Below the pieces are notes generated by a model that did not search any database, was not told the DNA's origin, and was given only the letters and a program-made list of their open reading frames with translations. From a virus, in the IMG/VR virus record IMGVR_UViG_3300042484_000952, positions 1 through 27,624 of that record: a stretch of 27,624 nt of DNA; one strand, given 5' to 3'. Each line of letters starts with the position of its first letter. Within the stretch, counting starts at the first letter, position 1. This document shows positions 529-26,685 of this stretch, one piece after another. The position numbers and the translations under genes are program-made.

Positions 529-529
529 C

Positions 530-781: not shown

Positions 782-2382
782 GCGACGTACAATCTGGCGC
801 GGTGCCAGTTTGTGAACACGTGCGCAATGCGGTCGATAGATACGTGGCAGATCGTGCAGCGGGTTGGGGATTCTCTGACACCTACGCTTTGCATGCCATT
901 GAATTTATTGAGCAGCTCGAGCATTCGACGGGCGAATATGCGGGCAAGCCGTTTGAGTTGGAACCTTGGCAGGCTTTTATTATTTGGAATCTGTTTGGGT
1001 TTTTGAACGAGGATGGTAGCCGTAGGTTTACGCGGGCCTATGTTGAAGTGCCACGCAAAAATGGTAAATCTACATTCAGCAGCGCCATTATGCTATACGG
1101 GCTTATTGCAGATGACGAATCGGCGGCGCAAGTTTACAGCGCGGCTACAAAGTTGGACCAAGCCATGATGGTTTTTGGCGAGTCTGTTAGGGTTTGCCAA
1201 AATCTGCCCTGGTTAAATGAAGCGCTTACCGTTAACAATTCTGTAAACAATCGGCGCATCCTTTACGGGCAGTCAATATACAAACCGCTCGAGTGGAACC
1301 CAGGCAAGCAGGACGGACTCAATGCGCACTTTTGTTGTATCGATGAATACCACGCCCACCCAAATGATGAGCTGTATAACGTAATACGCAACTCAATGGG
1401 GGCAAGGCGGCAGCCGTTGCTGTTTACCATTACCACGGCGGGCTTCAATCGTGAGGCACCCTGCTACAAACACCGGCAGTACTGCGCAGGGGTATTGAGT
1501 GGCAATATAAAAGACGATGCTTTGTTTTCGGTGATCTATACATTGGATGAGGGCGATGATTGGACAGACCCGGCAGTATGGGCCAAAGCAAATCCAAATT
1601 GGGGTATTTCTGTAAACCCTAGGCAGTTGGAGCAGGGATTGACCGAGGCCAAGGAGTTTGTGCACAAAGAAGTTGAATTTAAAACCAAACTGCTGAACGT
1701 TTGGACCGATACGGCAATGACTTGGATAAGTGATAGTGATTGGAAGGCTTGCGATGGCGCGGATAATCTTGAAGGCGCTTTGTGTTATGGCGGATTGGAT
1801 TTGGCGTCGACGGGTGACTTTTGCGCATTTAGTTTATACTTCCCAGAATTTCACGCGATTCGCTCATGGTATTGGTTGCCAGTGGAGACGGCATATAAAA
1901 GAAAGGACGCAGCAGGGCAATCGATTAGGCAGTGGGCGAGCGATGGGCATATTGAGTTAACGGACGGAAACGTAACTGATTACGCTTTTATTAAGGCGCG
2001 GGTTATTCAGTTGGCGCAACAGTACGACATCAAAGACATTGCCTTTGACCGATTCAACTCTTCGCAGTTAGTCATTGAGCTACAAAATGAGGGCCTGCAA
2101 ATGTTCCCATTCGGCCAGGGCTTTGTATCAATGTCGGCGCCTACCAAAGAACTGGAGCGATTGACAAAGGATAAACAATTAAGGCACGCGGGCAATCCCG
2201 TTACGCGTTGGATGATGGGCAACATAATGCTGCGCACAGATCCCGCGGGCAACATTAAAATAGACAAAGCGAAGTCGGGCGATAAAGTCGATGGGCCTGT
2301 TTCGATAGTTATGGCATTGGGCACTTGCATGCAGGATGCCGCAAAAGAAAAAGAATCAGATTTTTGGTTTGTAAGCTTATGA
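757..2382 (+). CDS. terL: Terminase large subunit (ATPase and nuclease)
   Basis: This is the packaging motor: an N-terminal ATPase drives DNA into the prohead and a C-terminal RNase H-like nuclease cuts concatemers. The 541-residue protein shows Walker A VPRKNGKST (98-106), Walker B FCCIDEYHA with D196/E197, the coupling motif TITTAG (224-229), and nuclease acidic residues in GGLDLAST (D348), AFDRF (D431) and KVDGP (D512). Length and motif order fit the phage terminase family that includes HK97 (Terminase_1). The start is a GTG at 757 inside the preceding gene; the family-like opening (KYISDVQSGAVP) would be lost from any later start. Confidence 0.95.
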   Translation: MQKVEKYISDVQSGAVPVCEHVRNAVDRYVADRAAGWGFSDTYALHAIEFIEQLEHSTGEYAGKPFELEPWQAFIIWNLFGFLNEDGSRRFTRAYVEVPRKNGKSTFSSAIMLYGLIADDESAAQVYSAATKLDQAMMVFGESVRVCQNLPWLNEALTVNNSVNNRRILYGQSIYKPLEWNPGKQDGLNAHFCCIDEYHAHPNDELYNVIRNSMGARRQPLLFTITTAGFNREAPCYKHRQYCAGVLSGNIKDDALFSVIYTLDEGDDWTDPAVWAKANPNWGISVNPRQLEQGLTEAKEFVHKEVEFKTKLLNVWTDTAMTWISDSDWKACDGADNLEGALCYGGLDLASTGDFCAFSLYFPEFHAIRSWYWLPVETAYKRKDAAGQSIRQWASDGHIELTDGNVTDYAFIKARVIQLAQQYDIKDIAFDRFNSSQLVIELQNEGLQMFPFGQGFVSMSAPTKELERLTKDKQLRHAGNPVTRWMMGNIMLRTDPAGNIKIDKAKSGDKVDGPVSIVMALGTCMQDAAKEKESDFWFVSL

Positions 2383-2564
2383 AATTTTTGGATGACTACA
2401 TGCAGGAATATTACAACAACCTACCGAGATATCGGACTTATGAGGATGCCTACAATGCAACCGAGGAAAAGTATTTTGGCAAGTTTGGGATAAGAAGGTA
2501 CAAAAACTACGATGTATTCAGGGCAGCGCTCAGCAGGTGGTTGGCTCAGGGGCGTAATAAGTAA
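2379..2564 (+). CDS. Small conserved protein of the packaging operon
   Basis: A 61-residue protein whose ATG overlaps the terL stop (ATGA), implying translational coupling. The frame stays open further upstream to 2325 but that part lies inside terL, so the coupled ATG is preferred. The sequence is rich in aromatic and charged residues (YEDAYNATEEKYFGKFG, then RYKNYDVFRAALSRWL). I believe similar small proteins occur in Bacteroidota prophages, from memory only, and no function is known to me. Its TAA stop is also the first part of the promoter-like repeat at 2562-2574. Confidence 0.7.
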   Translation: MKFLDDYMQEYYNNLPRYRTYEDAYNATEEKYFGKFGIRRYKNYDVFRAALSRWLAQGRNK

Positions 2565-2601
2565 TTTGTTAACGTGATTGATTTAGGGCAGTTGTAATTT
2601 G
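2562..2601 (+). promoter_or_regulatory. Promoter-like element before the portal gene
   Basis: TAATTTGTTAACG (2562-2574) is followed 33 bases from its start by TAATTTG (2595-2601), seven bases before the portal ATG at 2608. The same 13-mer, the same 33-base phase and a similar TAATTTTG occur at 13563-13603. In both places the first three bases are the stop codon of the upstream gene. The -7 element here is one T short of the TAnnTTTG consensus. Confidence 0.45.
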
Positions 2602-2607
2602 CGGGCG

Positions 2608-3882
2608 ATGAATCTAAAATTCTGGCAGCCAAAAAGAGCGGAGAAGCGCAGTAGCTTATCGCAGCCAACTGATTGGCTTGTGAATACTTTACAAAATGTT
2701 TTCGGATATCAAACAAAAAGCGGTCAGGCGGTTAATGATCGCACGGCGTTATCTATTGCGTCGGTGCACGCGTGCGTTAGAGTTATTGCAGACGGTATTG
2801 CGGGGCTATCTTTAAAGTTGTATAAAGATGATGGCACCAATCGCGAGCAGGTTGTAATCCATTACGCTACGGCATTGGTAAACGAACCAAACCCGTATCA
2901 AACAAAATACGATTTCACCAAATACATGGTGAGCCATTTGGCGCTGAAGGGCAACGCTTACGCTTTTATCAATCGCGACAGCAGATATTTGGGCATTGAG
3001 TTGCACCCGATTGCACCTGATTACGTTCAGCCAATCATGCAGGACGGCCAATTGTTTTACAAAGTGAATCGAAAAGGATTCCCTGGCATGATTCCAGCGG
3101 CCGACATGTTGCACTTTAAAGGGCTTTGTGGTGATGATCCGCTTGTGGGTTTATCGCCCATCGTGGTGCACGCCGAAACCTTGGGCATTGATTTGGCAGC
3201 AATTAGCCAGAGCGCTGGCGTCTACAAAAATGGAGTATTGAAATTTTTGTTAACATCTGACGCACAGATTAAACCCGAGCAGGCAGTGCCATTAAAGAAA
3301 TCGCTTGACGATGTAATTGATGGGGCAAGCCGCAGCACTGTGTTGCCAAATGGCATCAAGATGGAAAAACTATCTTTAAGCCCAGAAGAGGCTCAGTATT
3401 TGGAAACCCGCAAATTTTCGGCTGAGGAAATCGCCCGTATTTTTGGGGTGCCCGCCTCCATGATCGGCGCAAAGGATGGCATCAAGTCCAGCGTTGAGCA
3501 GGAATATCAAGATTTTTACGCACGTACTTTGGCATCCTATGCGATTAACATCGAGCAGGAAATGGCCCGTAAGCTGTTAACAGAAAACGACAAGTTGACT
3601 TATTACTTTAAATTTAACTTTAATTCGCTGTTGAGAGCCTCCGCCAATGAGCGCGCTGACTATTACAATAAAGGCATTCGCGGCGGTTGGCTTTCACGTA
3701 ACGAGGCCCGCATGTTTGAAGATGCTAACGGATTTAATGGAGGCGATGAATATTTGATCGAATCTAATTTGATGCCGTCCAGCAAAATCGATGAATACAT
3801 GGACGCTAAGATTGCGCAACTAATGAGCACCGCCGACAAAAACAACAATCCAGAGGGAACCAATAATACAGAAGTCATTTAA
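2608..3882 (+). CDS. Portal protein, HK97 family
   Basis: This forms the dodecameric ring at one capsid vertex through which DNA enters and leaves and to which the tail connects. The 424-residue protein has the HK97-type portal signature: N-terminal S-V-x-ACVRVIADGIAGL, the SHLALKGNAYAFINRD segment, HFKGLCGDDPLVGLSPI in the middle, and KFSAEEIARIFGVPASMIG followed by EQEYQDFYARTLASYA in the stem/crown region. The C-terminal tail is polar and disordered. A TTG start nine bases upstream is possible, but ATG at 2608 follows a promoter-like element at the usual distance. It is followed after one base by the protease gene. Confidence 0.95.
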   Translation: MNLKFWQPKRAEKRSSLSQPTDWLVNTLQNVFGYQTKSGQAVNDRTALSIASVHACVRVIADGIAGLSLKLYKDDGTNREQVVIHYATALVNEPNPYQTKYDFTKYMVSHLALKGNAYAFINRDSRYLGIELHPIAPDYVQPIMQDGQLFYKVNRKGFPGMIPAADMLHFKGLCGDDPLVGLSPIVVHAETLGIDLAAISQSAGVYKNGVLKFLLTSDAQIKPEQAVPLKKSLDDVIDGASRSTVLPNGIKMEKLSLSPEEAQYLETRKFSAEEIARIFGVPASMIGAKDGIKSSVEQEYQDFYARTLASYAINIEQEMARKLLTENDKLTYYFKFNFNSLLRASANERADYYNKGIRGGWLSRNEARMFEDANGFNGGDEYLIESNLMPSSKIDEYMDAKIAQLMSTADKNNNPEGTNNTEVI

Positions 3883-3883
3883 C

Positions 3884-4495
3884 ATGAAACAAGAAAGGCG
3901 CACATTTACGGGCACCGTCCACACCAGGTCAGAAGGCGAAGGCATGCCAAAAGAAATTGGCGGCATTGCTGCTGTCATTAATTCCGCTACGGATCTAGGA
4001 TATTTTGAGGAGGTTATTTTGCCAGGGGCGTTTGACAATGCTCTTTCAAAAGATTACGACATTCGCTGTTTGTTTAATCACGAAGCCGAGTTAATTTTGG
4101 GCCGCACAAAAGCAAACACCTGCAAAGTGTTTGTAAATGGCGACGGCAATCTTGAATATACTTGGGTACCAGATTATGAGAATCCCACACATATGTCGGT
4201 TGTGCGTTCTATCATGCGCGGCGATATCACGCAAAGCTCATTTGCTTTTACAATCAAAGAGCAAATGTGGAGCGAGTCAGAAAAGTACGGATCTATGGGC
4301 AAGCGCACAATCAAGGTCATCGAGGATTTGTACGACGTTAGCCCTGTAACTTATCCCGCTTACGCCGATACTGAAGCCGACGCCCGTAGCATTGTTGCTA
4401 TGCGTGATCAGGAGCAAGAAATTGAAGAGGCAAAAAGAAGCCAAGCCTCTGCCGATGTTATTAAATTGGCTTTATTGAGATACCAAAACCTTTAA
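3884..4495 (+). CDS. Prohead maturation protease, HK97/S78 family
   Basis: A serine protease packed in the prohead that cleaves the capsid delta domain and itself before DNA packaging. The 203-residue protein starts with the family opening RRTFTGTVHTRSEGE, then GIAAVINSATDLGYFEEVILPGAF, the catalytic His in LFNHEAELILGRT (H66), the catalytic Ser in GDITQSSFAF (about S118-S119) and the third motif DVSPVTYPAY (151-160). The C-terminus is a charged helix, probably the capsid-targeting tail. It sits between portal and capsid, as expected. Confidence 0.94.
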   Translation: MKQERRTFTGTVHTRSEGEGMPKEIGGIAAVINSATDLGYFEEVILPGAFDNALSKDYDIRCLFNHEAELILGRTKANTCKVFVNGDGNLEYTWVPDYENPTHMSVVRSIMRGDITQSSFAFTIKEQMWSESEKYGSMGKRTIKVIEDLYDVSPVTYPAYADTEADARSIVAMRDQEQEIEEAKRSQASADVIKLALLRYQNL

Positions 4496-4510
4496 ACAAA
4501 AAACAAAATC

Positions 4511-5824
4511 ATGAATAAAATCAAAGCCCTTAAAGAAGAGCGTGGACGTTTGCTAGGCGAATTGTCTACCTTGCAAACCACCATTGAAAAAGAAGCCAGA
4601 TCTATGGCCGATTCAGAAACTAATCGCTTGGCTGAAATCGAGGCTCGTTTGGGCGCGATCAAAGCAGAGGTTGAAACCTTGGAAAAGTTGCAGAATCTTG
4701 CAGCTCAAGCCGCTGGCCACGTTGCTAGCCGTAGCGAAGAAAAAGAAAAGTCAGAAATGGCTAAAGAGTACAGCTTTAAGCGCGCTATCGATATGGCTAT
4801 TTCTGGCCGTCGCGAAGGTGTTGAAGGTGAATTTTCTGCCTTGGCTTCTAGCGAGTATCAGCGTAGCGGTGTAAGCGTAAGCGCTCACTCTATGAAAATC
4901 CCTTCTGAAGTATTTAAGCGTGATATGTCTGCTACTGGCGGAACTTCTGGCTCTGAAGGTGGTGTAAACGTTCAAACTTCTGTTGGTTCTATTATCGACG
5001 TATTGCTTCCTAAGACTGTATTGCGCGGTTTGGGTGTGCAGCAGTTGAGCGGATTGGTTGGTAACTTGGATATGCCAACAGCTTCAACTGTGCCTTCTGC
5101 AGGTTGGAACACTGAAAACGGAACTGCTACTGAAAAGAGCCCCGCGTTCAGCAAAATCACTTTCAGCCCTAAGCGTTTGGCCGCTTACATTCAAGTTTCT
5201 AACCAGTTGATGTTGCAATCTAGCAACTCAATCGACGCTTACGTGCGTAACTGGTTGTTGAATGCAATGGCTCAGTCTTTGGAAACTGCTGCTATTAAAG
5301 GCGGTGGATCTAACGAGCCAACCGGTATCATTGCTAACTCTTCAGTTAACGTAACTTTTGCAGGTGGCGCATCTTCTAACAGCACAAACGCAAACGGAAT
5401 CGCTCCAGTATGGGCCGACGTTGTTAACTTGATGAAAGCCGTTGAAAACGCAAACGGTGAGGGTGTTGCTTACTTGACCAACCCTAAAGTAAAAGCCGCT
5501 TTGCAAACTATCCCACGCCAAGCTTCAGGTGTTGAAGGTAACTTCATCTGGCCTGCAGGTGGTGCTGAATTGAACGGTTACAACGTAGCCACTTCAACTT
5601 TGGTTCCTTCAAACTTGTCTAAGGGTACTAGCTCAACTTTGTCTGCAATGATCTTTGGAGATTTCAGCAAAATGGCTATCGCTTCTTGGGGTGGTATGGA
5701 GTTGACAGTTGACCCTTATAGCGGTGCTACTGCTGGCTTGACTAACGTTGTATTGAATGCTTACTTAGATTGCAACTTGTTGCAGCCTACTGCCTTCGCA
5801 GTTTGTAAGGACATCGTAGCCTAA
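4511..5824 (+). CDS. Major capsid protein, HK97 fold
   Basis: This is the shell subunit. The 437-residue protein has an N-terminal coiled-coil delta domain of about 85 residues (KALKEERGRLLGELSTL and on) acting as built-in scaffold, then the HK97 core: GGVNVQTSVGSIIDVLLPKT, NLDMPTASTVPSAGW, FSPKRLAAYIQVSNQLM, an AAIKGGGSNEPTGI loop, and a C-terminal IFGDFSKMAIASWGGMELTVD strand. Cleavage by the upstream protease probably falls between residues 75 and 120. Codon use is markedly different from the neighbours (AAC, CGT, TTG, TCT, GCT favoured), as expected for the most highly expressed gene. It ends with tandem TAA TAA. Confidence 0.95.
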   Translation: MNKIKALKEERGRLLGELSTLQTTIEKEARSMADSETNRLAEIEARLGAIKAEVETLEKLQNLAAQAAGHVASRSEEKEKSEMAKEYSFKRAIDMAISGRREGVEGEFSALASSEYQRSGVSVSAHSMKIPSEVFKRDMSATGGTSGSEGGVNVQTSVGSIIDVLLPKTVLRGLGVQQLSGLVGNLDMPTASTVPSAGWNTENGTATEKSPAFSKITFSPKRLAAYIQVSNQLMLQSSNSIDAYVRNWLLNAMAQSLETAAIKGGGSNEPTGIIANSSVNVTFAGGASSNSTNANGIAPVWADVVNLMKAVENANGEGVAYLTNPKVKAALQTIPRQASGVEGNFIWPAGGAELNGYNVATSTLVPSNLSKGTSSTLSAMIFGDFSKMAIASWGGMELTVDPYSGATAGLTNVVLNAYLDCNLLQPTAFAVCKDIVA

Positions 5825-9138: not shown

Positions 9139-11145
9139 ATGGCAAGGTCGTTAAATATAGTAATTGGCGCAAACATTGAAAAGCTCAGACAGGGCTTTAA
9201 TGATGCGATATCAGTAATAAAAAAGGCGGGCGGTGAAATGTCTGCCGATGTGGCTAAGAGTGCGAAGAGCATTGAGGAGAAGCTAGCAGCGATTGCAACT
9301 AAAAATCCAACAGCGGGAACTGTTAGGCAGTTAACAAATTTGGCGATGGAAGCGCGGGCATTAGGTCCAGAGTTCCAAAATGTAGCTAATGATATAATTC
9401 GTGAAGCGGGTAGAATAAAAGATAGCATAGGCGATGCACGTGCAGAGGTTGCGTATTTCGCAAGTGATACGCGAAAACTTGACGCAGTAATAGGAACTGT
9501 GCAAGGTGTTGCCGGGGCTTATTCTGTAGCAGAGGGCGCCATTGCTTTGATGGGCGTTGAAAGTGAAGATCTTCAAAAAACCATGGTTAAGCTGCAGGCA
9601 GTTATGGCAGTGGTTACAGGGTTACAAGAAATAGAAACTTTACTACAAGAAGAGAGCGCGGCGATGCAGGGGTTGCTTGCTTTGCGCACTTCTGCATTAA
9701 CAGCAGCAAAAACGGCTTACGCTGCCGCAGTTGGCACGGCCACGGGAGTGCAAAGGGGTTTTAACTTAGTAATGGCTGCTGCGCCTTGGGCATTGGCTGC
9801 TACTGCTATAGCGTCAATAGCTTACGCACTTAGTGCTTACGCGGAAAAAACTAAAAAGGCGGCTCAAGAGCAGAAGCTATTTAATGAGCTTAACGCTGAA
9901 ACGCAAAAGAATTTTGAAGAGGAGGTAAAGAGTGTTAGTGGTTTATTGGCAGTTGTAAATAACCATAACGCCAGCATGCGAGAGCGTAAAAATGCGCTAG
10001 CAGAAATACAAAAAATTTACCCAGACTTTCTAGCAAACCAAAGCATTGACAAGGTAAACAGCGCAGAGTTAAAAACTGCGACTAGTAACTTGACTGCTGA
10101 AATTTTTAAGCAGGCAAAAGCAAAAGCCGCATTTGCAAAGTTGCAAGAGTTGAGCGCTAAAATGCTTGAGTACGAACTAGGCAAACAGCAGGCTCAGCTA
10201 AGCACACAGGCTGAATTAAATAGACTTTATGCTAGCGGGGCTTCTGCTTCACAAGTGCAAGGTTTTATAGACAGCCAAAAGAATATAGGCACAATAGCCG
10301 CAGCAAACGCCGCAAAAATCCAAACGCAAATAGACGCCATAGTTCAAATGGCTACTGCCCAAGGATTAAGCATAACGCCTATTGCTCAAAGCACAAATGC
10401 AATAAACCAACAAACGGTAGCAGTAGAAAAACTAACCGAAGCAAAATCTTTTGATAATAGCGCAATACAACCCACTAGCCAATTTGGCGCAACTTCGCCA
10501 ACTATTGAGGCTTTTGCTAAAGCTACTGGGCCATTGCCACAATACACAGCGGTAGTAAAAGCGGAAACTACAGAGCAGGCCCTAGTGATTTCAGATTATG
10601 AGAAAAACATGGCTACCGCTATGGAAGGCGTTAACCAGGCTTTTAATAATTTGACCGCCCAGGGCCTCGAAGATTTCGGGGTATTGTTGGGCGATATTAT
10701 GACGGGCCAAATCGGTAGCTTTCAAGATTTTGGCAAGAAATTACTGGGATCCGTTGCGGCATTCATGAAATCCTTTGGACAGGCATTGATTGCAACGGCT
10801 ACAGCGTCAAAGGCTTTTAAGGAGTTGCTAATTAAAAACCCTGTGCTCGCAGCTGCTGCGGGTGTTGCATTGATTGCGGGCTCTGCGGTGATCACTGGAA
10901 TGCTTAACAAAGGCCCACAGGCTACAGCATTCGCCGAGGGGGGAATTGTGAGCGGTCCGACTTTGGGATTGGTAGGTGAGTACCCAGGGGCAAGTAGTAA
11001 CCCTGAAGTGATTGCACCACTTGACAAACTTAAGGGGATGCTAAACACAAACGAGCAAAGCGGATTTGTTGCTAGCACCACAATACAGGGGCGAGATTTG
11101 GCGATAGTATTGGAACGATATAACAAAGATTCAAGAAGAGGATAA
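9139..11145 (+). CDS. Tape measure protein
   Basis: Sets tail length and is ejected before DNA. The 668-residue protein is mostly alpha-helical and Ala/Gln/Lys-rich, with coiled-coil stretches (about 235-440), a hydrophobic segment at 208-231 and a second at 567-589, as is common for this class. The C-terminal part AEGGIVSGPTLGLVGEYPG (599-617) followed by NPEVIAPLDKL is a very typical ending in phage tape measure proteins. At roughly 0.15 nm per residue, a general rule for siphophages, the tail would be near 100 nm. It starts two bases after the tail terminator and shares one base with the tail-tip gene. Confidence 0.93.
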   Translation: MARSLNIVIGANIEKLRQGFNDAISVIKKAGGEMSADVAKSAKSIEEKLAAIATKNPTAGTVRQLTNLAMEARALGPEFQNVANDIIREAGRIKDSIGDARAEVAYFASDTRKLDAVIGTVQGVAGAYSVAEGAIALMGVESEDLQKTMVKLQAVMAVVTGLQEIETLLQEESAAMQGLLALRTSALTAAKTAYAAAVGTATGVQRGFNLVMAAAPWALAATAIASIAYALSAYAEKTKKAAQEQKLFNELNAETQKNFEEEVKSVSGLLAVVNNHNASMRERKNALAEIQKIYPDFLANQSIDKVNSAELKTATSNLTAEIFKQAKAKAAFAKLQELSAKMLEYELGKQQAQLSTQAELNRLYASGASASQVQGFIDSQKNIGTIAAANAAKIQTQIDAIVQMATAQGLSITPIAQSTNAINQQTVAVEKLTEAKSFDNSAIQPTSQFGATSPTIEAFAKATGPLPQYTAVVKAETTEQALVISDYEKNMATAMEGVNQAFNNLTAQGLEDFGVLLGDIMTGQIGSFQDFGKKLLGSVAAFMKSFGQALIATATASKAFKELLIKNPVLAAAAGVALIAGSAVITGMLNKGPQATAFAEGGIVSGPTLGLVGEYPGASSNPEVIAPLDKLKGMLNTNEQSGFVASTTIQGRDLAIVLERYNKDSRRG

Positions 11146-14754: not shown

Positions 14755-15579
14755 ATGATACTTTCAACACACGGTATTGTTGGTTCGCAAATCCAATCCT
14801 TTGTTGGTTTATTGGATACTTACCCAAACGCGGCGGCGGCTTATTCAGTTCGTAAATTAAGAACAGCGTACACGGGTAGTGCTATTCGTGTTCGTAGGTC
14901 AAGTGATAACACAGAAACGGACATTGGATTTAGTGGTGCAAATCTTGACACATCTTCTTTAACTTCTTTTTGTAGTGGTACAAATGGATTTGTAACCACT
15001 TGGTACGATCAAAGTGGTAATGCCAGAAACGCAACGCAGACAACAGCCTCAAACCAACCTAAAATCGTAAATGCGGGGAGTGTTTTAGTAGATGCAAATG
15101 GTAAGCCAAGAATTCAAGGCAACCAAAGTTCAACAACAAATTTATCGACTACATTTTCATCGTCGCAACCTACAACAATTTTTGGAGTGGTAAATTATAC
15201 CTCTTTAACCTCTCCAACAATATACCCTTACGCAGTGGATTTGGCTTCCTCTGGAAATATTGTTGTTATTGGGTATTATAACGGTGCATTTATAGATGGA
15301 GGTGCTTCATTATATAGTACAGTTTCAATTTCAACAAATACAAATTATTTATCCTATGGTTTACTAAATACCACAAGTTCTGAAATAGCAATAAATACAA
15401 CTTTAACCACAGGTAATGCGGGAACAGCTAACCCAAGCGCTATTAAAATGTTTAATGCACGAGGTAACGATGCCGTTTTGAACGGATTTTTAAGCGAAGT
15501 AATTATTTACCCATCTAATCAGTCAACAAATAGAACGGGCATTTCAACAAATATAAACACATACTATGCAATCTATTAA
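14755..15579 (+). CDS. Adhesin-like protein with GH54 N-terminal similarity
   Basis: A 274-residue protein one base after the fibre gene. Residues about 24-105 (AAAAYSVRKLRTAYTGSAIR, VRRSSDNTETDIGF, LTSFCSGTNGFVTTWYDQSG, ARNATQT) resemble the start of the alpha-L-arabinofuranosidase B (GH54) catalytic region, which has a concanavalin-like fold, including the SFC-G and YDQSG motifs. The rest is a Ser/Thr/Asn-rich beta sandwich in LamG style, ending LSEVIIYPSNQS. It is about half the length of the GH54 catalytic module, and I cannot locate the catalytic residues, so sugar binding is more likely than hydrolysis. Base composition is clearly more AT-rich than the head and tail genes, suggesting recent exchange. 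Confidence 0.65.
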   Translation: MILSTHGIVGSQIQSFVGLLDTYPNAAAAYSVRKLRTAYTGSAIRVRRSSDNTETDIGFSGANLDTSSLTSFCSGTNGFVTTWYDQSGNARNATQTTASNQPKIVNAGSVLVDANGKPRIQGNQSSTTNLSTTFSSSQPTTIFGVVNYTSLTSPTIYPYAVDLASSGNIVVIGYYNGAFIDGGASLYSTVSISTNTNYLSYGLLNTTSSEIAINTTLTTGNAGTANPSAIKMFNARGNDAVLNGFLSEVIIYPSNQSTNRTGISTNINTYYAIY

Positions 15580-16804: not shown

Positions 16805-17093
16805 CCTCACCATCCTGCTGTTGATCCTGCTTGTTTTTGGCGGGATGGCTTACGTGGAATTTGCGGTACCAAAACGCGAGCGGGTAGTGCACGGCCCTGC
16901 GATTAGGATTGTTGAAAAAGATTTAGATACCCTGTATCAAATCCGCCTGAAATACAAAGCCCTGCACGATACACAAATTGTAATTAATCAAAAATATGAC
17001 ACGCTCTATATTGCTCTTGATGGTGATACTTCTTGCGGCGCCACGCTACGGCTTATCGCAATGCACCGACAGCTCGACAGTCTCGGCAAATAA
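16791..17093 (+). CDS. Inner-membrane spanin candidate (Rz-like)
   Basis: A 100-residue protein with one N-terminal membrane helix (about 6-25, LTILLLILLVFGGMAYVEFA) and a periplasmic charged domain (VEKDLDTLYQIRLKYKALHD), as in i-spanins. The start is a GTG at 16791 overlapping the holin candidate by 14 bases. The next gene begins 98 bases before its end in another frame, the nested arrangement typical of Rz/Rz1 pairs. A rival reading is a generic membrane-anchored helper. Confidence 0.55.
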   Translation: MSKSNLTILLLILLVFGGMAYVEFAVPKRERVVHGPAIRIVEKDLDTLYQIRLKYKALHDTQIVINQKYDTLYIALDGDTSCGATLRLIAMHRQLDSLGK

Positions 17094-17301
17094 TTACTAT
17101 CTGCTGAAGGGCGCAGAAGCCCGGGAGAATCTGGCGCTTTGTATTGAGTATCGGAAGATTGATGCGGAGGTAATTGCGCAGCAGGATAAAATCCAGGCTA
17201 AGTTATTGGATGAGCTGCAGAAGCGTGATCAGAAATACCACCGACTCCGCCGCACAACATATGCAATTGCAGCCGTCTTTTTAGTAACTTTGATCTTATG
17301 A
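16996..17301 (+). CDS. Outer or unimolecular spanin candidate
   Basis: A 101-residue protein, started inside the previous gene, with an N-terminal signal sequence (MTRSILLLMVILLAAPRYG), a Cys at 22 in GLSQC, a charged helical middle (EVIAQQDKIQAKLLDELQKR) and a C-terminal membrane helix (about 87-101, TTYAIAAVFLVTLIL). Signal plus Cys at one end and a membrane anchor at the other is the plan of unimolecular spanins, which bridge both membranes. The Gln before Cys is not a standard lipobox, so cleavage by signal peptidase I after LSQ, common in Bacteroidota, is an alternative. It overlaps the endolysin start by 4 bases. Confidence 0.55.
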   Translation: MTRSILLLMVILLAAPRYGLSQCTDSSTVSANNYYLLKGAEARENLALCIEYRKIDAEVIAQQDKIQAKLLDELQKRDQKYHRLRRTTYAIAAVFLVTLIL

Positions 17302-17861: not shown

Positions 17862-18429
17862 TTAGCTTAGCGTTGATCGCTGCAACCCCTGCGGGCTCTT
17901 CGTGTTGGATATCTACCACCTCATCAACGCTATGCATCCCCATTGTAATTTCGGGGGCGTAGAGACGGCCAAAGAAAGCGGCGGCCCTGTAGCGCATCAT
18001 TAGCTCGGGCATTGTTTTCCATTTGCTGCCTGCCTTGCTTACCCACCCCTCAGCGTTTGCCATTGCCATCGTAACGGCGGGGCCTTCTACGGTCTCGCCT
18101 GTTGCCTTTTCGGTGGCCACTGCCTTAATACCTTTGTCAAGATCACCAACAAAGCGCAGGGCGGTGAACTTTCCGCAGCCGTTTATTGCAGCAATCACGA
18201 ATGTACTGGACCAACTCGGACGCCCGTGAATGATGTGAAGGTTTTGCATAACCATAAGCGGAGAGGCTCCGATGCGGTTTGCAATTTCGAGGGCTACCAA
18301 TGTATTGGCTACGTTGCCTTTGTATTGTTGTGGCACCAAGTCTGAAGCGCTCAGGGCTTTCGCTTGGCGTTGGGCCAACTCGAAGCTGCTGAGTGGCGCG
18401 GGGTTTGTTTCTGTTATTTCTGTGCTCAT
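17842..18429 (-). CDS. recT: RecT-family single-strand annealing protein
   Basis: Anneals complementary single strands during phage recombination. The 195-residue protein has the RecT core: SASDLVPQQYKGNVANTLVA, ALEIANRIGASPLMVMQNLH, IIHGRPSWSSTFVIAAING (68-84), and the C-terminal KWKTMPELMMRYRAAAFFGR followed by APEITMGMHSVDEV. It is shorter than E. coli RecT (269 residues) because the N- and C-terminal extensions are missing. Its start overlaps the stop of the RecE-like nuclease gene by 4 bases, so exonuclease and annealing protein form one leftward operon. The end runs convergently into the endolysin gene with no terminator between. Confidence 0.93.
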   Translation of the reverse strand: MSTEITETNPAPLSSFELAQRQAKALSASDLVPQQYKGNVANTLVALEIANRIGASPLMVMQNLHIIHGRPSWSSTFVIAAINGCGKFTALRFVGDLDKGIKAVATEKATGETVEGPAVTMAMANAEGWVSKAGSKWKTMPELMMRYRAAAFFGRLYAPEITMGMHSVDEVVDIQHEEPAGVAAINAKLINPTAE

Positions 18430-19190
18430 AAAATTACCTTTGTTACAATTTCGCTATATCCGTGCCAGATTCCGCTTTTCTTACAAAAGCCGTAGGTCAT
18501 TAGATTTTTTTTGTATTTCTGTCTGGCTTCCTTTAGATCCTCGTTGCCGATGAAATACCAGCCAACTAAATAGGGCGGGTGCTTTTCAACAGCAACAAAA
18601 AAGAAACCGTTGCAGGGCTTTCCCGTGGCTTCCTCGAGCCCGTCGGAGTAAAATGCGGCCTGCACATCGTAGCGGTACTTTTTAACGCTCTGTGAGAAGC
18701 CGCGCGGGCTTGCGTCCTCTGTTGTTTTAAGGTCAATAATTACGTTGTCAGGCGTCAACCAATCGGGGCGAGCCTTGCAATCAATTTCGGTTTCTTCATC
18801 ATTCCAGTAAATGGGTTGCTCAGCGATGCCGTCTTTTAAAAGATACTGCGCCGTCCGATGACCGCGGACGCTTTCCATTATGCGCTCCACCATTGTGGCG
18901 CTTTCTGCATCCAGTGGAATTAGGCCCTGCGAGTGCTTGAGGAAATTGGCCCAGGTTTCTTTGCCTTCCTTTGTGCGTCGGTCGCAATGAGGGGCGACGG
19001 CATAGCGTTTGCCGAACTCAGCGGGCTCAAATACTGCACAATGAGCAGCGGAGCCAATGATTAGCGCAGGGGTTTCTTTCTGCGGTGAGGCGTTGGGGTT
19101 TAGATAGCGCTCGTAATAAAGTGCCGGGGCGCGATTAATTAGGTCGAGGCCGCTCTTTGAGACGCGGCTAATGTCTGTGTGGTACTGCAT
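18426..19190 (-). CDS. RecE-like PD-(D/E)XK exonuclease
   Basis: Probably resects double-strand ends to give the single strands used by RecT. The 254-residue protein has the RecE-type/PDDEXK_1 core: SKSGLDLINRAPALYYERYL, GSAAHCAVFEP (46-56), and the active site RPDW (D143), IIDLKTT (D153, K155) and YRYDVQAAFYSDGL (173-184). An upstream ATG at 19232 would add 14 residues (LQIYKKSD...), but 19190 lies eight bases after a minus-strand TAAATTTG element and gives a family-like start, so it is preferred. The frame also ends in a coupled ATGA with recT. Confidence 0.9.
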   Translation of the reverse strand: MQYHTDISRVSKSGLDLINRAPALYYERYLNPNASPQKETPALIIGSAAHCAVFEPAEFGKRYAVAPHCDRRTKEGKETWANFLKHSQGLIPLDAESATMVERIMESVRGHRTAQYLLKDGIAEQPIYWNDEETEIDCKARPDWLTPDNVIIDLKTTEDASPRGFSQSVKKYRYDVQAAFYSDGLEEATGKPCNGFFFVAVEKHPPYLVGWYFIGNEDLKEARQKYKKNLMTYGFCKKSGIWHGYSEIVTKVIL

Positions 19191-19193
19191 AAC

Positions 19194-19226
19194 ATTTGCA
19201 AATTTATCGCTTTTTTTGTAAATTTG
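19194..19226. promoter_or_regulatory. Divergent early control region
   Basis: Plus strand: TTTG (19195-19198), 20 bases, TAAATTTG (19219-19226), six bases, ATG of the HTH gene; this is a full consensus Bacteroidota promoter. Minus strand: TAAATTTG read from 19206 to 19199, eight bases before the nuclease ATG, with no clear -33. The box ATTTGCAAAT (19194-19203) is a perfect palindrome, and TTTTGTAAAT (19214-19223) starts exactly 20 bp further on. They cover the minus -7 and the plus -7 elements, so one bound repressor could control both directions. Confidence 0.65.
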
Positions 19227-19232
19227 TAGCAT

Positions 19233-19409
19233 ATGGAAAAAAATATCGTTACTGATTTAAAAATTAAGGCAATCCAAAAGGGCGTAACCCTCACAAAACT
19301 TTGCGCACTTGCAGGCGTGAATCGGTGCGTCTTAACTCACTGGAGCAGAAAGGAGCCGAAGAGCTTAGAAACGTTGAGGAAATTAGAACAGACCTTACAA
19401 AATCTTTGA
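19233..19409 (+). CDS. Small HTH regulator, Cro-like candidate
   Basis: A 58-residue protein, MEKNIVTDLKIKAIQKGVTL followed by TKLCALAGVNRCVLTHWSRK. The helix-turn-helix spans about residues 18-38 (VTLTKLCALAGVNRCVLTHW), with the usual A-x-x-x-G-V turn of Cro/CI-type domains. It is a bare DNA-binding domain with no visible dimerisation or cleavage part, which fits a Cro-like switch protein. It is the first gene of the rightward early operon behind the consensus promoter and is followed by an intrinsic terminator at 19440-19472. The boxes at 19194/19214 and 28/48 are its best candidate targets; that is an inference. Confidence 0.75.
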   Translation: MEKNIVTDLKIKAIQKGVTLTKLCALAGVNRCVLTHWSRKEPKSLETLRKLEQTLQNL

Positions 19410-19410
19410 G

Positions 19411-19472
19411 TATATTTGCGCCGTTAGTGTGGTGCTAACTGCCTCGGGTTTCGGCTCGGGGCATTTTTTTTT
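19411..19472 (+). ncRNA. Candidate short RNA with TGTGGTG loop
   Basis: An exact TAnnTTTG element (TATATTTG, 19411-19418) right after the HTH stop codon could start a transcript near 19424 that ends at the terminator at 19472, about 50 bases. It would fold as GTTAG (19423-19427), loop TGTGGTG, CTAAC (19435-19439), then the terminator hairpin. Bases 19428-19437 (TGTGGTGCTA) are perfectly complementary to TAGCACCACA at 19520-19529 and 19924-19933, just before two start codons. There is no good -33 element, so the RNA could instead be the 3-prime end of the HTH message. Confidence 0.35.
19440..19472 (+). terminator. Intrinsic terminator after the HTH gene
   Basis: A 9-bp stem (TGCCTCGGG, 19440-19448, with 19455-19463, two G-U pairs), a 6-base loop (TTTCGG) and a run of nine T (19464-19472). 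It would end the HTH transcript before the next promoter at 19481. Confidence 0.85.
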
Positions 19473-19480
19473 CAAATTTA

Positions 19481-19511
19481 TTTGGTTTTGTGGATAATGC
19501 CTTTATATTTG
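19481..19511 (+). promoter_or_regulatory. Early operon promoter
   Basis: TTTG (19481-19484), 19 bases, TATATTTG (19504-19511): a complete -33/-7 Bacteroidota promoter with consensus spacing, directly after the terminator. A start near 19518 leaves a leader of about 15 bases containing AGCACCACATTT before the ATG at 19533, unlike the other promoters here, which leave almost no leader. Confidence 0.75.
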
Positions 19512-19518
19512 CAACCAC

Positions 19519-19536
19519 ATAGCACCACATTTATGA
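19519..19536 (+). repeat. 18-bp leader repeat, copy 1
   Basis: ATAGCACCACATTTATGA, identical to 19923-19940, spanning the leader, the start codon and one base more of the 124-residue gene. Contains TAGCACCACA, complementary to the loop region at 19428-19437. Confidence 0.9.
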
Positions 19537-19907
19537 AAAACACCACATTAAAACAAAAACACACCGCTTACTTCCTTATCAACGAAAAAGGAAATTTAGA
19601 ATTGGTTACTTATGCGCCTGACCAAAATTTAAGCGGACAAAAAGCATCGGATTCTTATGCACTTGCACAAGGGTTATTTGTAGATGCAATTTCACACGAA
19701 CTTTGGCTTACTGATGTAAAATGCCATAGAGTGGTTGGAACGCCCAGCGGATTGCAAACTATTAAAGATTTGAATTGCAAAATAATTGCAAAACAAACTT
19801 TCAATTGGGATATGTCAAAGCCAATCGGACAAAGACAAAGCGACTTGAAAAAGTCAAGCAAATGGGATGAGTGCTTTGCTTTTTATAAAAACCAAACGGG
19901 GGCTTAA
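19533..19907 (+). CDS. Unknown early protein in an AT-rich cassette
   Basis: A 124-residue protein. An in-frame TTG upstream at 19482 lies inside the promoter, so ATG at 19533 is used. It looks like a small soluble alpha/beta protein: TAYFLINEKGNLELVTYAPD, a helix (KASDSYALAQGLFVDAIS), WLTDVKCHRVVGTPSGLQTI, and a basic end (RQSDLKKSSKWDECFAFYKN). I recognise no family. It is the first gene after the early promoter, is AT-richer than its neighbours, and lies exactly between two 18-bp direct repeats, so it looks like an inserted accessory gene. First-expressed phage genes of this kind often target host functions; that is a guess. Confidence 0.7.
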   Translation: MKNTTLKQKHTAYFLINEKGNLELVTYAPDQNLSGQKASDSYALAQGLFVDAISHELWLTDVKCHRVVGTPSGLQTIKDLNCKIIAKQTFNWDMSKPIGQRQSDLKKSSKWDECFAFYKNQTGA

Positions 19908-19922
19908 CCGTACCCTTATTTA

Positions 19923-19940
19923 ATAGCACCACATTTATGA
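19923..19940 (+). repeat. 18-bp leader repeat, copy 2
   Basis: The second copy of ATAGCACCACATTTATGA, again ending in the start codon plus one base, here of the gene at 19937. Distance to copy 1 is 404 bases. No promoter element lies directly in front of this copy. Confidence 0.9.
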
Positions 19941-20152
19941 GTTTAGATATTATTTACCCAATCATTTTAGCGCCTGCTACCATTGCGGTGGCCTACTGCG
20001 CTCACGTAATTCGCCGCAACAAAAAGCGCAGAATCGAAACCCCTGAAGCCGAGCCGTACAAATTTGAGCGCGATGAATTTCGCCCCGAGTTTGATGAGTT
20101 CACGCAAATGCTTTATCAGCGCAGAATGTACAGAGGGAGGGGCGACAAATGA
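19937..20152 (+). CDS. Small membrane protein
   Basis: A 71-residue protein with one N-terminal membrane helix (about 5-24, IIYPIILAPATIAVAYCAHV), followed by a strongly basic stop-transfer (RRNKKRR) and a charged C-terminus rich in Glu, Phe and Arg (FERDEFRPEFDEFTQMLYQR). It probably sits N-out/C-in. It starts within the 18-bp leader repeat and overlaps the next gene by 4 bases. No family recognised. Confidence 0.65.
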   Translation: MSLDIIYPIILAPATIAVAYCAHVIRRNKKRRIETPEAEPYKFERDEFRPEFDEFTQMLYQRRMYRGRGDK

Positions 20153-20916: not shown

Positions 20917-21110
20917 TTGACCTACCAGAACAAACAATATCACTGCACATTTACAACGCTTGCTTCATGATCACCAACATTGAAGAGCGCGACAAAATGA
21001 GGGAATATATAAAAGTTGCCGAGCAGTACGAACTTTCACGACATTCAATAATAAAGCCAAATGATTACAGATTATTTACAACTATACAGCAGAGCGAGAC
21101 GCGAGAATAA
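20913..21110 (+). CDS. Unknown small early protein
   Basis: A 65-residue protein with no recognised domain: ISLHIYNACFMITNIEERDK, then a charged helix (MREYIKVAEQYELS) and a polar end. It starts in an ATGA overlap. Its stop TAA (21108-21110) is directly followed by GGAG, which forms a Shine-Dalgarno-like TAAGGAG six bases before the ATG at 21121. Confidence 0.6.
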   Translation: MIDLPEQTISLHIYNACFMITNIEERDKMREYIKVAEQYELSRHSIIKPNDYRLFTTIQQSETRE

Positions 21111-21120
21111 GGAGCTACAA

Positions 21121-21504
21121 ATGCGCATTCTTCAAATGACATCCAAATATGAGGCCGAGGTGGTAAGGTTGAAAAACGAACTACTTCGCCCACAGGTGAA
21201 ATTCACCAGCAAGATGGATGACTTCGCCAAGGTTATGCAATCCGTATGCATTGCCTGCGATGTAACTCCTGCGCAGTTGTTAAGCACTTCCAGGGAGGGC
21301 GACATTAAGGATGCCCGGCATATGTTGGTTTACATTCTGCGACAGCACTACGCCCTTCGCTATTCGGAAATCGGCCGCAGGTTGGGCCGTGATCACTCGA
21401 CAGCGATTAACAGTTATCAAAGAATGTCGGAGTTTTTGGAATACGATAAAGGAGTGCAGAAGATTTACAACACAGTAAAGGAGCTGCTGGGGATATGCAA
21501 TTAA
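21121..21504 (+). CDS. DnaA domain IV-like DNA-binding protein
   Basis: A 127-residue protein whose C-terminal two thirds resemble the DNA-binding domain IV of DnaA: DVTPAQLLSTSREGDIKDAR, HMLVYILRQHY, YSEIGRRLGR, then the signature DHSTAINSYQRM (91-102). The AAA+ part of DnaA is missing; an N-terminal coiled coil (about 5-22) takes its place. The start follows TAAGGAG; an ATG at 21061 in the same frame would add 20 residues, continue the coiled coil and overlap the previous gene by 50 bases. It sits before the helicase and primase, so it may mark the phage origin or recruit the helicase, or compete with host DnaA. Confidence 0.75.
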   Translation: MRILQMTSKYEAEVVRLKNELLRPQVKFTSKMDDFAKVMQSVCIACDVTPAQLLSTSREGDIKDARHMLVYILRQHYALRYSEIGRRLGRDHSTAINSYQRMSEFLEYDKGVQKIYNTVKELLGICN

Positions 21505-24356: not shown

Positions 24357-24529
24357 ATAAACCAACACACGCACGAATTGCCCACGTTGAAGTTACCGAA
24401 AACGGCATACTTATAAAAGCAATTCACCTACACGATAAAAATGGCGAGTATATTCGCGACGCTAAACTGAACGGGCAACTACTTTGCACGCTTACTGAGC
24501 ATTTACTCAAGATCACCATATGCAAATAA
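24353..24529 (+). CDS. Unknown 58-residue protein before the primase
   Basis: A 58-residue protein: MNKPTHARIAHVEVTENGIL, IKAIHLHDKNGEYIRDAKLN, GQLLCTLTEHLLKITICK. Mostly beta in the first half, with a final helix. Its ATG overlaps the previous stop, and the primase ATG lies 10 bases before its end, so translation is coupled. No family recognised. Confidence 0.6.
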   Translation: MNKPTHARIAHVEVTENGILIKAIHLHDKNGEYIRDAKLNGQLLCTLTEHLLKITICK

Positions 24530-26685
24530 CCTATCTGCCGAACATTAAACAGTCGGCAAAGCACCACACAATTACCATAGCGGATTATTTCGCCCTGGTG
24601 CGCTCAGGGCAACACTTGGCACTTATTGAAGCGTACAGGAATACAAAGGCGTTAAGTAAGGATGAGCAAGCCGAGGCAAAGCAGCGGATTCCAGCGGTTA
24701 CGATCTCGGGGGTGTTTAAAGACAATGTGAGCAACGCAAACCTCATTCAACACTCAGGGCTTATTTGTATTGATTTTGATGCTGTGGACGATGTGGCTCG
24801 ATTAAAGTCTGAACTGGCTAAAGATCCGTATACTTTTGCCGCTTTGCTATCCGTTTCGGGCAATGGGCTGGCAGCACTTGTTAAGATTGAGCCAGAGCGG
24901 CACCTTGACGCGTTCAATGGATTAAAACAGTATTATTTCCGCAACTACGGGCAACTGATTGATCAGAGTTGTAAGAATGTGAGCCGTCTGCGATTCCTGT
25001 CTTATGACCCATTACTTTATACCAACGAGCAAAGCAAGACCTTTAAAGAGTACCCTAAAAAGGAAGCCAAGCCAAAGCAAGTGCACACTGTACTAACTGG
25101 CAACGAATTTGATGAATTGATTGATAGGATTTGCCGGGGCGGTTATGATCTAACAGAGGGCGCTTACAAAAACTATCTCGATATTGGCTTTGCGCTGGCT
25201 TCAGAGTTTGGAGAGCGAGGCCGTGAGTATTTCCACGCCATCGCCGCCCAAAATTCAAAATACGACCATATTAAGGCCGATAGACAGTATAATTATTGCC
25301 TACGAGATACAGGCCAGAGCAAGATTGCAATCGGCACATTTTACTATTATGCTAAACAGGCAGGCGTTGAGTTAAAAAGCCAGCAGGCTGTGAAGTTGGA
25401 GAACATTGCAAAAATGGCCAAAAAGCAAGGGCGTGCTCAGGAGTCGGTGGTTGAGATTGCCCGGCTGTCTGGCATGGACGTTGAAAAGGCCACAGAGACC
25501 GCCGCCGCAGTTTTTGAGGCTAACGTTTCGCTGCAGCTCACGGGCCAGACGCCCGTAGCGCTATGCCAGTTGTATCTATCCAACAATCACCAACTGCACT
25601 ATAACACGATCACCGCAGATATTGAGGACCGCGCTGTAACATTTAACAACAGGCCGAAGCAAATCGATGATATGTCGTTAAATACGATGTATTTGAAATT
25701 TTCAGAATTAACAGACAACAAAATATCATTTGAGTTTTTTTGCCGCGTGATCTATTCCGAAATGACCCGCTATTACAACCCATTCGAGGACTTTTTAAAG
25801 GCTAATGAGTCAGTACAGCGCAGCCAGCAAATTATTGAAGAGTTGGCCGCTTGCATCGAAACAACCACGCCCCACGTTGCCAAATATCTCACTCACTGGG
25901 GCGTTGGAATGATTGCCAGCGTTTACGGCCACACCTCGCCCCTGGTATTGGTATTGGCAGGCGAGCGCCAAAATACGGGTAAAACTGAGTTTTTTAGGCG
26001 TCTGCTTCCTAAGCCACTCGCCAACTACTACGCAGAGTCTAAACTAGATGGGGGCAAAGATGACGATATTTTGCTGACAAAAAAACTGATCATAATGGAC
26101 GATGAATTTGGGGGTAAATCAAAGTTTGAGGCCAAACGATTTAAGGAGTTAACGAGTAAGGCGTCATTTTCAATTCGCTTGCCTTATGGGCGTACGCACC
26201 GGGATCTGAAGCGCTTGGCTGTCTTAGCAGGAACTACAAACGACTTGGGCCTTATCTCGGACCCTACAGGCAACCGTCGAATCCTGCCTATTAATGTGCT
26301 CGGCATCAATCACCCGGCATACAACGCAATTGACAAAACCGCGCTATTCATGGCCTTCTATGACCTATATCAATCAGGGTTCAATTGGCACCTTTCGAGT
26401 GAGGATATACTACAACTAAACGAAAATAGCACGGAATTTAATGCAATTAATTTTGAGGCGGAATTAATAAACCAATATTTTCGCGTTCCGCAAAATGGTG
26501 ATTACAGCGATTATTTAACAAATACAGAATTGAAAATATATCTCGAGGTAAACAGCCAACAGCGGATTTTTGACACTCGAAAGTTGGGGATGGAAATGAA
26601 AAATTTGGGCTTTCAACAAGTGAAAAGGAAGGTCAATGGATCAACAATGCGCTGCTATGCGGTTGTAAAAATAGCCAGACAATGA
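24520..26685 (+). CDS. VirE-type primase-helicase replication protein
   Basis: Probably the main phage replication initiator. The 721-residue protein begins with a VirE N-terminal/BT4734-like primase-fold domain (about 1-185: GLICIDFDAVDD with acidic pair at 85-87, SVSGNGLAALVKI, SRLRFLSYDP). A PriCT-like linker follows (about 215-280: YKNYLDIGFALASEFGERGR). The C-terminal VirE-type P-loop ATPase (about 440-720) has Walker A GERQNTGKT (481-489), Walker B KKLIIMDDEFG (521-531) and GTTNDLGLISDPTGNRRILP (571-590) with a likely arginine finger. It combines priming and unwinding, as in other Bacteroidota mobile elements. The repeat array at 26697-26940 directly follows. Confidence 0.88.
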   Translation: MQITYLPNIKQSAKHHTITIADYFALVRSGQHLALIEAYRNTKALSKDEQAEAKQRIPAVTISGVFKDNVSNANLIQHSGLICIDFDAVDDVARLKSELAKDPYTFAALLSVSGNGLAALVKIEPERHLDAFNGLKQYYFRNYGQLIDQSCKNVSRLRFLSYDPLLYTNEQSKTFKEYPKKEAKPKQVHTVLTGNEFDELIDRICRGGYDLTEGAYKNYLDIGFALASEFGERGREYFHAIAAQNSKYDHIKADRQYNYCLRDTGQSKIAIGTFYYYAKQAGVELKSQQAVKLENIAKMAKKQGRAQESVVEIARLSGMDVEKATETAAAVFEANVSLQLTGQTPVALCQLYLSNNHQLHYNTITADIEDRAVTFNNRPKQIDDMSLNTMYLKFSELTDNKISFEFFCRVIYSEMTRYYNPFEDFLKANESVQRSQQIIEELAACIETTTPHVAKYLTHWGVGMIASVYGHTSPLVLVLAGERQNTGKTEFFRRLLPKPLANYYAESKLDGGKDDDILLTKKLIIMDDEFGGKSKFEAKRFKELTSKASFSIRLPYGRTHRDLKRLAVLAGTTNDLGLISDPTGNRRILPINVLGINHPAYNAIDKTALFMAFYDLYQSGFNWHLSSEDILQLNENSTEFNAINFEAELINQYFRVPQNGDYSDYLTNTELKIYLEVNSQQRIFDTRKLGMEMKNLGFQQVKRKVNGSTMRCYAVVKIARQ

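Follow-up and report, generated by a model that had tools for sequence, protein, structure and literature searches.

A predicted short phage RNA with complementarity to the starts of early genes in two divergent operons

Predicted RNA Locus and Its Phage Setting

The window, by which we mean the whole stretch of DNA that was analysed, comprises 27,624 bases and has the gene content of a tailed phage. The genes and elements that frame the locus are as follows:

58 to 5824: terminase, portal, protease and capsid genes
18426–19190, minus strand: gene for a RecE-like exonuclease, the left-hand predicted target operon (Pfam DUF3799 (PD-DEXK), E 4e-40; PHROG exonuclease VIII, E 1e-86)
19233–19409, plus strand: gene for a small HTH protein of unknown role, upstream of the RNA
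19411–19418, plus strand: TATATTTG, the -7 element (Bacteroidota type TAnnTTTG) of the RNA gene
19423–19472, plus strand: predicted short RNA of about 50 nt, consisting of a hairpin with the seed loop and an intrinsic terminator
19423–19427 and 19435–19439, plus strand: hairpin stem GTTAG/CTAAC, 5 bp
19428–19434, plus strand: exposed loop TGTGGTG
19440–19463, plus strand: terminator stem of 10 pairs, with a T run to 19472
19481–19511, plus strand: early rightward promoter TTTG-N19-TATATTTG (read directly)

The RNA locus sits between the HTH gene, whose stop codon ends at 19409, and the early promoter at 19481–19511. An earlier sequence-only reading had described the TATATTTG element, the hairpin with loop TGTGGTG and the terminator in this interval, and this description held. 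Folding of 19419–19472 gave -20.8 kcal/mol (z -3.8) with the hairpin as drawn, and none of 200 shuffled sequences folded equally well. A TAnnTTTG element precedes the RNA in all 25 distinct variants from the 35 contigs described below as well as in most of the distant types, but a clear TTTG box at -33 was not found. Thus, a promoter-like element and a terminator are present and conserved, while a -33 box and expression data are missing. Given the lack of a clear -33 box, it is conceivable that the RNA is a 3' UTR product of the HTH mRNA. An Rfam cmscan of 19180–20000 with E values up to 5 yielded five weak and unrelated matches, and C4 was not among them.

To the right of the RNA locus lie the genes for a helicase and a VapE/PriCT primase. 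The relatives of the helicase among named phages include Flavobacterium and Cellulophaga phages (35–36% identity), and the primase carries a BT4734-like domain. TTTG-N19-TATATTTG, or TAnnTTTG, is the promoter type of Bacteroidota. Taken together, the helicase relatives, the primase domain and the promoters suggest that the phage probably has a Bacteroidota host. A search of 24 records of the group for tyrosine integrase (PF00589) and resolvase (PF00239) was negative in all 24, whereas the positive controls were detected. The phages of the group show no sign of lysogeny, with the reservation that the records may be fragments. The HTH protein had no Pfam or PHROG match. As separate observations, the structural gene region contains a partial match to an alpha-L-arabinofuranosidase B catalytic domain (14755–15579; PF09206, E 8e-12), and the C-terminal DNA-binding domain of bacterial DnaA (PF08299, E 6e-16) is recognisable in a small protein encoded at 21061–21504, a homologue of which is a predicted target in clade 2.

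Complementary Sites in the Window and a Duplicated Leader

Bases 19428–19437 of the predicted RNA are complementary to TAGCACCACA, which occurs exactly at 19520–19529 and 19924–19933, and the pairing extends to 12 nt with one G-U. The sites considered within the window are:

19177–19183, minus strand: ACCACAC at codons 3–5 of the divergent exonuclease gene (start codon 19190–19188); 7 nt, or 8 with one G-U
19520–19529, plus strand: target site 1, TAGCACCACA; lies in the first rightward gene's leader and ends 3 nt upstream of the ATG at 19533
19533–19907, plus strand: inserted cassette gene at the first position of the rightward operon
19541–19547, plus strand: secondary site CACCACA at codons 3–5 of the inserted gene; the sole site word in G015 and G024
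19924–19933, plus strand: target site 2, TAGCACCACA, in the leader of gene 19937–20152, 3 nt before its ATG
24560–24569, plus strand: AGCACCACAC, 40 nt into the primase gene (24520–26685)

The ten-of-ten match, its extension and the two exact copies before start codons had been claimed in the sequence-only reading and were confirmed. Its placement of the sites 6 to 8 bases before the start codon was wrong, since they begin 13 nt and end 3 nt before the ATG. It had also held that the early promoter is the only one with a leader long enough to be targeted, and this found no support either, because further sites lie inside coding sequence, namely in the exonuclease (19177–19183, minus) and primase (24560–24569, plus) genes.

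The two leaders, which had been offered as evidence, hold only in part: the copies are real but not independent. They are portions of a direct repeat, TAGCACCACATTTATGA, that flanks gene 19533–19907. This gene occurs in only one of the 35 contigs, the window itself, and cassette-free relatives have a single leader copy, so that the second copy of TAGCACCACA cannot count as independent evidence. Site 2 probably represents the original leader copy that remained after the insertion; the simplest explanation of the second copy is that it arose with the insertion. Homologues of the cassette gene (P2) elsewhere have different N-termini and lack ACCACA upstream of the start.

With at most one mismatch, TAGCACCACA has six matches in the window versus 1.62 expected, a number reached in none of 100 shuffles. 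Taken alone, the window gives moderate evidence against chance, with p 0.0025 for the leader and p 0.055 for the exonuclease start. A third exact copy at 11073–11082 lies inside a tail-region gene (9139–11145), 72 bases before the next start codon, and is probably due to chance. The first position of the rightward operon is an exchange spot for different small genes (19533–19907 in the window; also G014, G015, G017, G024, G029, G031, G033), several of which begin with a common MKNTTL module while their remainders are unrelated.

The RNA and Its Leader Site in Close Relatives

Viral contigs were scanned with the pattern TTTGC-N1-12-TTAGTGTGGTGCTAA, which led to 34 contigs, or 35 together with the window. 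The RNA is kept in all 34 further contigs, and relatives of the HTH protein occur in exactly the same 34. The contigs form two clades: clade 1 consists of the window and 19 contigs with the stem GTTAG/CTAAC, clade 2 of 15 contigs with ATTAG/CTAAT, so that the base of the stem shows a paired change from G-C to A-T. The minimum free energy fold of clade 2 does not contain the drawn hairpin. The loop is invariant across the close relatives, and a loop-degenerate scan of viral contigs returned 32 stretches, all within the known 34, and no loop variants in the near clades.

On the target side, ACCACA is located 2–14 nt before the first ATG in 33 of the 35 contigs. Counted as distinct leaders, these are 17 of 18; the one exception, shared by G015 and G024, has CACCACA at codons 3–5 instead. 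Outside ACCACA the complementarity slides, giving TAGCACCACA in the window, CACCACACTA in G021 and the 14-nt ACCACACTAATAAG in G029. In those clade-2 contigs that carry a first-position cassette (G014, G015, G017, G029, G031, G033), the site accompanies the cassette and is absent from P3, the next gene. This fits a site that belongs to the first start of the operon and not to a particular gene. The P3 protein of these relatives had no match among named phages.

A match in a bacterial genome contig from a Firmicutes assembly was judged to be due to chance, as it lies inside a permease-like frame (by eye) without terminator or leader. Between the HTH gene and the RNA of G018/L029 lie about 130 bases (roughly 5590–5760) for which a tRNA-Leu was considered and rejected, since neither ARAGORN nor Rfam at the gathering threshold gave a call; by eye, the L029 stretch has acceptor and T-arm motifs and an enlarged middle, and a similar stretch is present in L215. 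Contig G012 (36,727 bases; L093, L094) is longer than its relatives and possibly represents two joined genomes; it has a second primase-length frame on the other strand with the same AGCACCACAC site at +40.

Further Predicted Targets and a Genome-Wide Null

Homologous gene starts were scored in all 35 contigs for a match containing CCAC within -35 to +55. The exonuclease start carries a match of at least 7 nt in 33 of 33 contigs. Of the 14 clade-2 contigs that have the gene, 13 reach 11–12 nt there and G034 has 7 nt. The other sites are specific to one clade or patchy. The primase site at +40 (8–12 nt) is present in all 14 clade-1 contigs with the gene and in none of six from clade 2. Conversely, the P5 homologue has a 9–10 nt site at +11 in 13/13 contigs of clade 2, and none of 18 in clade 1 reaches 8 nt. 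The gene for the DnaA C-terminal domain protein has a site at -22 in clade 2 (8–10 nt in 10 of 11 contigs, 7 nt in the other) and none in clade 1. For a 101-aa gene (window 16996–17301) at least 8 nt were found in 12 of 29 contigs, the window not included. No site of at least 7 nt was found at RecT in clades 1 and 2 (0/32), nor did the helicase and most other gene starts show one.

Conservation of the exonuclease and primase sites may partly reflect the proteins, because the sites overlap conserved residues (YHT and KHH, respectively). Among the 554 primase columns with an invariant residue, 109 keep a single codon, and Lys14-His15-His16 all belong to these (14/14). Since 7 of the 12 His columns show an invariant codon in any case, this synonymous-site test is only suggestive.

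For a genome-wide null, every 23-mer on both strands of the same genome served as a pseudo-RNA, and genes with a complement of at least 10 nt at -25 to +45 were counted. The genes matched by the RNA and the number of pseudo-RNAs that were as good are:

G030: 4 genes; 0 of 43,904
G015: 3 genes; 7 of 39,770
G016: 3 genes; 40 of 55,496
Window: 2 genes; 234 of 55,018
G031: 2 genes; 174 of 39,048
G034: 2 genes; 302 of 41,490
G033: 2 genes; 472 of 52,584

The result was not notable for G018 (no gene at 10 nt; two at 9 nt, 1,815 of 54,550) nor for G022, G010, G011, G006 and G029 with one gene each; apart from the window, the group-1 tests (G022, G010, G011, G006) were not significant. Sense matches occurred in 13/13 contigs, and the antisense control gave zero in all 13. 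The null was run with two gene callers, the other of which gave weaker results for several contigs (G010, 15,044 of 61,634; G012, 3,107 of 73,224). The ORF caller picked other starts in some contigs, e.g. G029 and several loci, and thus missed the first-gene or exonuclease start there.

RNA and Targets Change Together in Distant Relatives

Distant loci were reached via exonucleases (46–52% identity) and P3 relatives, taking 80 of 170 and 80 of 261, respectively. Their gene order is the same: the divergent gene lies to the left and is in many cases followed by an HTH gene; then come TAnnTTTG, a hairpin or linker, a terminator, the early promoter and the P3 operon. The RNA of the distant types is unrelated in sequence to that of clades 1 and 2. 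Loci were assigned to types on the basis of synteny and of an element, promoter plus terminator, located between the divergent gene and the P3 operon; every type identified in this way was tested. The inspection covered 23 and then 22 exonuclease-relative loci (overlapping sets) and 27 of the 80 P3-relative loci. Left out for lack of such an element were L198, L199, L202–L204, L209, L213, L215, L217, L218, L226, L239, L240, L242 and L243, and also the amidase-like group L274–L318 except L316. As an aside, L198, L202, L218 and L226 have divergent exonuclease and HTH genes without the RNA element, and there the HTH gene directly precedes an apparent single-strand-binding protein gene (by eye).

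Type 3a (L207, L208, L210, L214, L222, L224) carries TTCTGTTTTCATGTT, the perfect complement of AACATGAAAACAGAA at the exonuclease start with the AUG included. This perfect 15-nt match across the AUG is present in six of the seven members compared, and the seventh (L221) has 9 nt plus G-U. Clade-1 and clade-2 RNAs match only 4–6 nt at the 3a exonuclease starts, and the same holds for 3a RNAs at the clade-1 and clade-2 starts. Type 3a sites occur at other starts too, for instance at RecT, where L207- and L221-like phages match through different RNA segments, and L222 has a second 15-mer match at a 74-aa gene. The pseudo-RNA null is moderate for this type (L222, 3 genes, 65 of 16,360; L207, 1 gene, 1,695 of 17,832), and L214 has one antisense match. 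In L316, L319 and L321 the RNA matches the start of the left-hand gene, which by eye resembles RecT. These three and L200 have no HTH gene beside the RNA, and complementarity is kept.

Single-type p-values were derived from 400 dinucleotide shuffles of the RNA:

Window: divergent gene 0.055; leader 0.0025
G023: divergent gene 0.047; leader 0.027
G016: divergent gene 0.040; leader 0.0125
G030: divergent gene 0.040; leader 0.030
L207: divergent gene 0.010; leader 0.98
L221: divergent gene 0.020; leader 0.33
L231: divergent gene 0.052; leader 0.0025
L271: divergent gene 0.027; leader 0.27
L200: divergent gene 0.005; leader 0.062
L230: divergent gene 0.12; leader 0.80
L266: divergent gene 0.0025; leader 0.59
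L316: divergent gene 0.047; leader 0.067
L319: divergent gene 0.025; leader 0.20
L321: divergent gene 0.052; leader 0.0075

No single type is strong on both targets, several leaders fail, and L230 fails on both. When RNAs were swapped among nine types, own pairs scored better than permuted pairs with all three scores (divergent gene p 0.0002–0.0004, leader p 0.0003–0.0022). Alternative members gave p 0.00015–0.0013 for the divergent gene and 0.0002–0.0009 for the leader; with related types merged to seven, the values were 0.0013–0.0045 and 0.0028–0.018. As whole-window RNAduplex energies were noisy for longer RNAs, contiguous runs and a Smith-Waterman complementarity score were used alongside. 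Members, RNA borders and windows were picked by hand after viewing the sequences, and the swap p-values are therefore not blind. With these hand-set members and borders, the data show at the sequence level that seed and targets change together between relatives.

A check for covariation of loop and leader had been proposed together with the initial idea of a short phage RNA pairing with two early leaders. Close relatives keep the loop while the leader varies around ACCACA, and distant RNAs are wholly different and match the gene starts that flank them better than those of other types. The comparison thus supports the idea with a target set wider than two leaders; transcription has not been shown by data. 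It is the comparative data, and not the two copies in the window, that constitute the main evidence.

Proposed Mechanism

What is established at the sequence level are the promoter-like and terminator elements, the complementarity, the position of the sites on the sense strand at start codons and the correlated change of RNA and targets. On this basis the locus likely encodes a short phage antisense RNA that represses the translation of both early operons, whereby transcription, pairing in cells, repression and timing are inferred without expression data. Transcription of the RNA would start at a dedicated TAnnTTTG promoter downstream of the HTH gene and stop at the intrinsic terminator. The hairpin loop of the RNA, GUGUGGUG, or in distant types a single-stranded linker and/or loop, would pair with the ribosome-binding region or the first codons of the leading gene in each of the two divergent early operons (exonuclease or RecT on the left, replication on the right); the same would hold for some further early genes. 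A duplex at or beside the AUG would block initiation, and early recombination and replication genes would be turned down, the brake acting either after the early phase or in step with the copy number of the phage genome.

Type 3a pairing would cover the AUG itself, and the clade-1 and clade-2 sites range from 2–14 nt before to about 20 nt after it. Such sites are within reach of an initiating ribosome, and the primase site at +40 is outside. Because the sites are within this reach, a block of initiation is the most likely effect. The predicted targets on either side of the RNA gene serve recombination and replication, and the best interpretation of the RNA is therefore that it restrains early functions.

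A bolder reading, which we regard as no more than possible, would be a widespread and fast-turning antisense RNA family in Bacteroidota-type phages that serves as a type-specific early shut-off or superinfection switch without lysogeny, with RNA "keys" being replaced wholesale together with their locks. If this were true, a phage already in the cell would shut down newly arriving phages only when they belong to its own type.

Alternative Explanations

A first alternative takes the repeated word to be an operator in the DNA for the HTH protein, with the hairpin as its palindrome and the other copies as further operators. It is supported by the HTH gene, which adjoins the RNA and occurs in exactly the 34 RNA-bearing contigs, by the palindromic arms of the hairpin in the DNA and by one leader site that overlaps the downstream side of the early promoter. 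However, in the vicinity of starts only the sense strand of the target carries sites (sense 13/13 contigs, antisense 0/13), some of them within codons and mid-operon (+11, +40) and away from promoters. Furthermore, the target copies lack the palindrome and often have only ACCACA in common, L200 and the RecT types (L316, L319, L321) show complementarity without an adjacent HTH gene, and the type 3a match is a 15-mer over the AUG. We thus consider an operator unlikely.

It might also be that an ordinary terminator hairpin follows the HTH gene and that the word was spread by cassette insertion and leader recombination. The direct repeat around the insertion, the common N-terminal MKNTTL module of cassette genes and the moderate window-only statistics would agree with such a coincidence. 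Yet insertion leaves the exonuclease, primase, P5 and DnaA C-terminal domain sites unexplained, as well as the correlated change of RNA and targets between types, which makes this explanation very unlikely.

Cis attenuation, in which the loop would pair with the leader in one read-through transcript and control termination or leader folding without a free trans RNA, is suggested by the common strand and the distance of about 90 nt between RNA and right-hand leader, but is hardly tenable because the exonuclease gene on the other strand and the primase gene 5 kb away cannot be cis targets and because a strong terminator and a complete second promoter separate RNA and leader.

Comparison With Known Systems

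The closest analogue of the proposed antisense RNA is the C4 antisense RNA of P1/P7, which we take to be Rfam C4 (RF01695). C4 RNA blocks translation by pairing around the ribosome-binding site of an early-acting phage gene (PMC12197685). Like C4, the window RNA is a short phage RNA just upstream of a gene it would control, with a loop as seed and predicted pairing around the ribosome-binding site, and it meets the trait of a loop complementary to the ribosome-binding region of a nearby phage gene (19428–19437 versus 19520–19529; 33 of 35 relatives). Unlike C4, the locus matches no Rfam model even at a permissive threshold, and its predicted targets are several genes in two divergent operons (exonuclease, small early genes, primase). 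An antirepressor was not found among the window proteins scanned, which did not include every window ORF. C4 is processed from the transcript of its own target, whereas the window RNA has an apparent promoter and terminator of its own, as inferred from sequence alone. C4 also belongs to temperate phages, in contrast to the 24/24 records without integrase or resolvase. By analogy, the window RNA may work like C4, but it is not a C4 member.

The CI RNA of P4 arises by processing of an operon transcript and terminates transcription prematurely in the leader. The window locus resembles this immunity system in having a small RNA upstream of a replication operon and complementary sites in the operon leader, and differs from it in that a separate, terminator-ended RNA is predicted and that the sites are at start codons. 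OOP and aQ of lambda are short phage antisense RNAs that turn down the phage's own regulators (PMC12197685). The likeness lies in a short antisense RNA of a phage against its own genes; OOP and aQ, however, are cis-antisense and lie opposite their target, whereas the window RNA is encoded apart and matches several targets.

Phage antisense RNAs are mostly known from temperate phages of Proteobacteria. No such phage RNA was found for Bacteroidota-type phages in the literature searched, a search of limited depth, and in the above review (PMC12197685) the term "bacteroid" occurs 0 times. The RNA described here would be a short RNA that apparently controls both early operons in phages without sign of lysogeny. 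It shares with multi-target bacterial sRNAs of fixed seed a short seed, many mRNAs and sites in the region of the initiating ribosome, but its targets are phage genes, and its seed is replaced wholesale together with the targets between related phages. In several independent types the RNA has changed in concert with several targets, which makes the family a source of ready-made swap experiments and a natural series for watching an RNA regulator exchange its target specificity.
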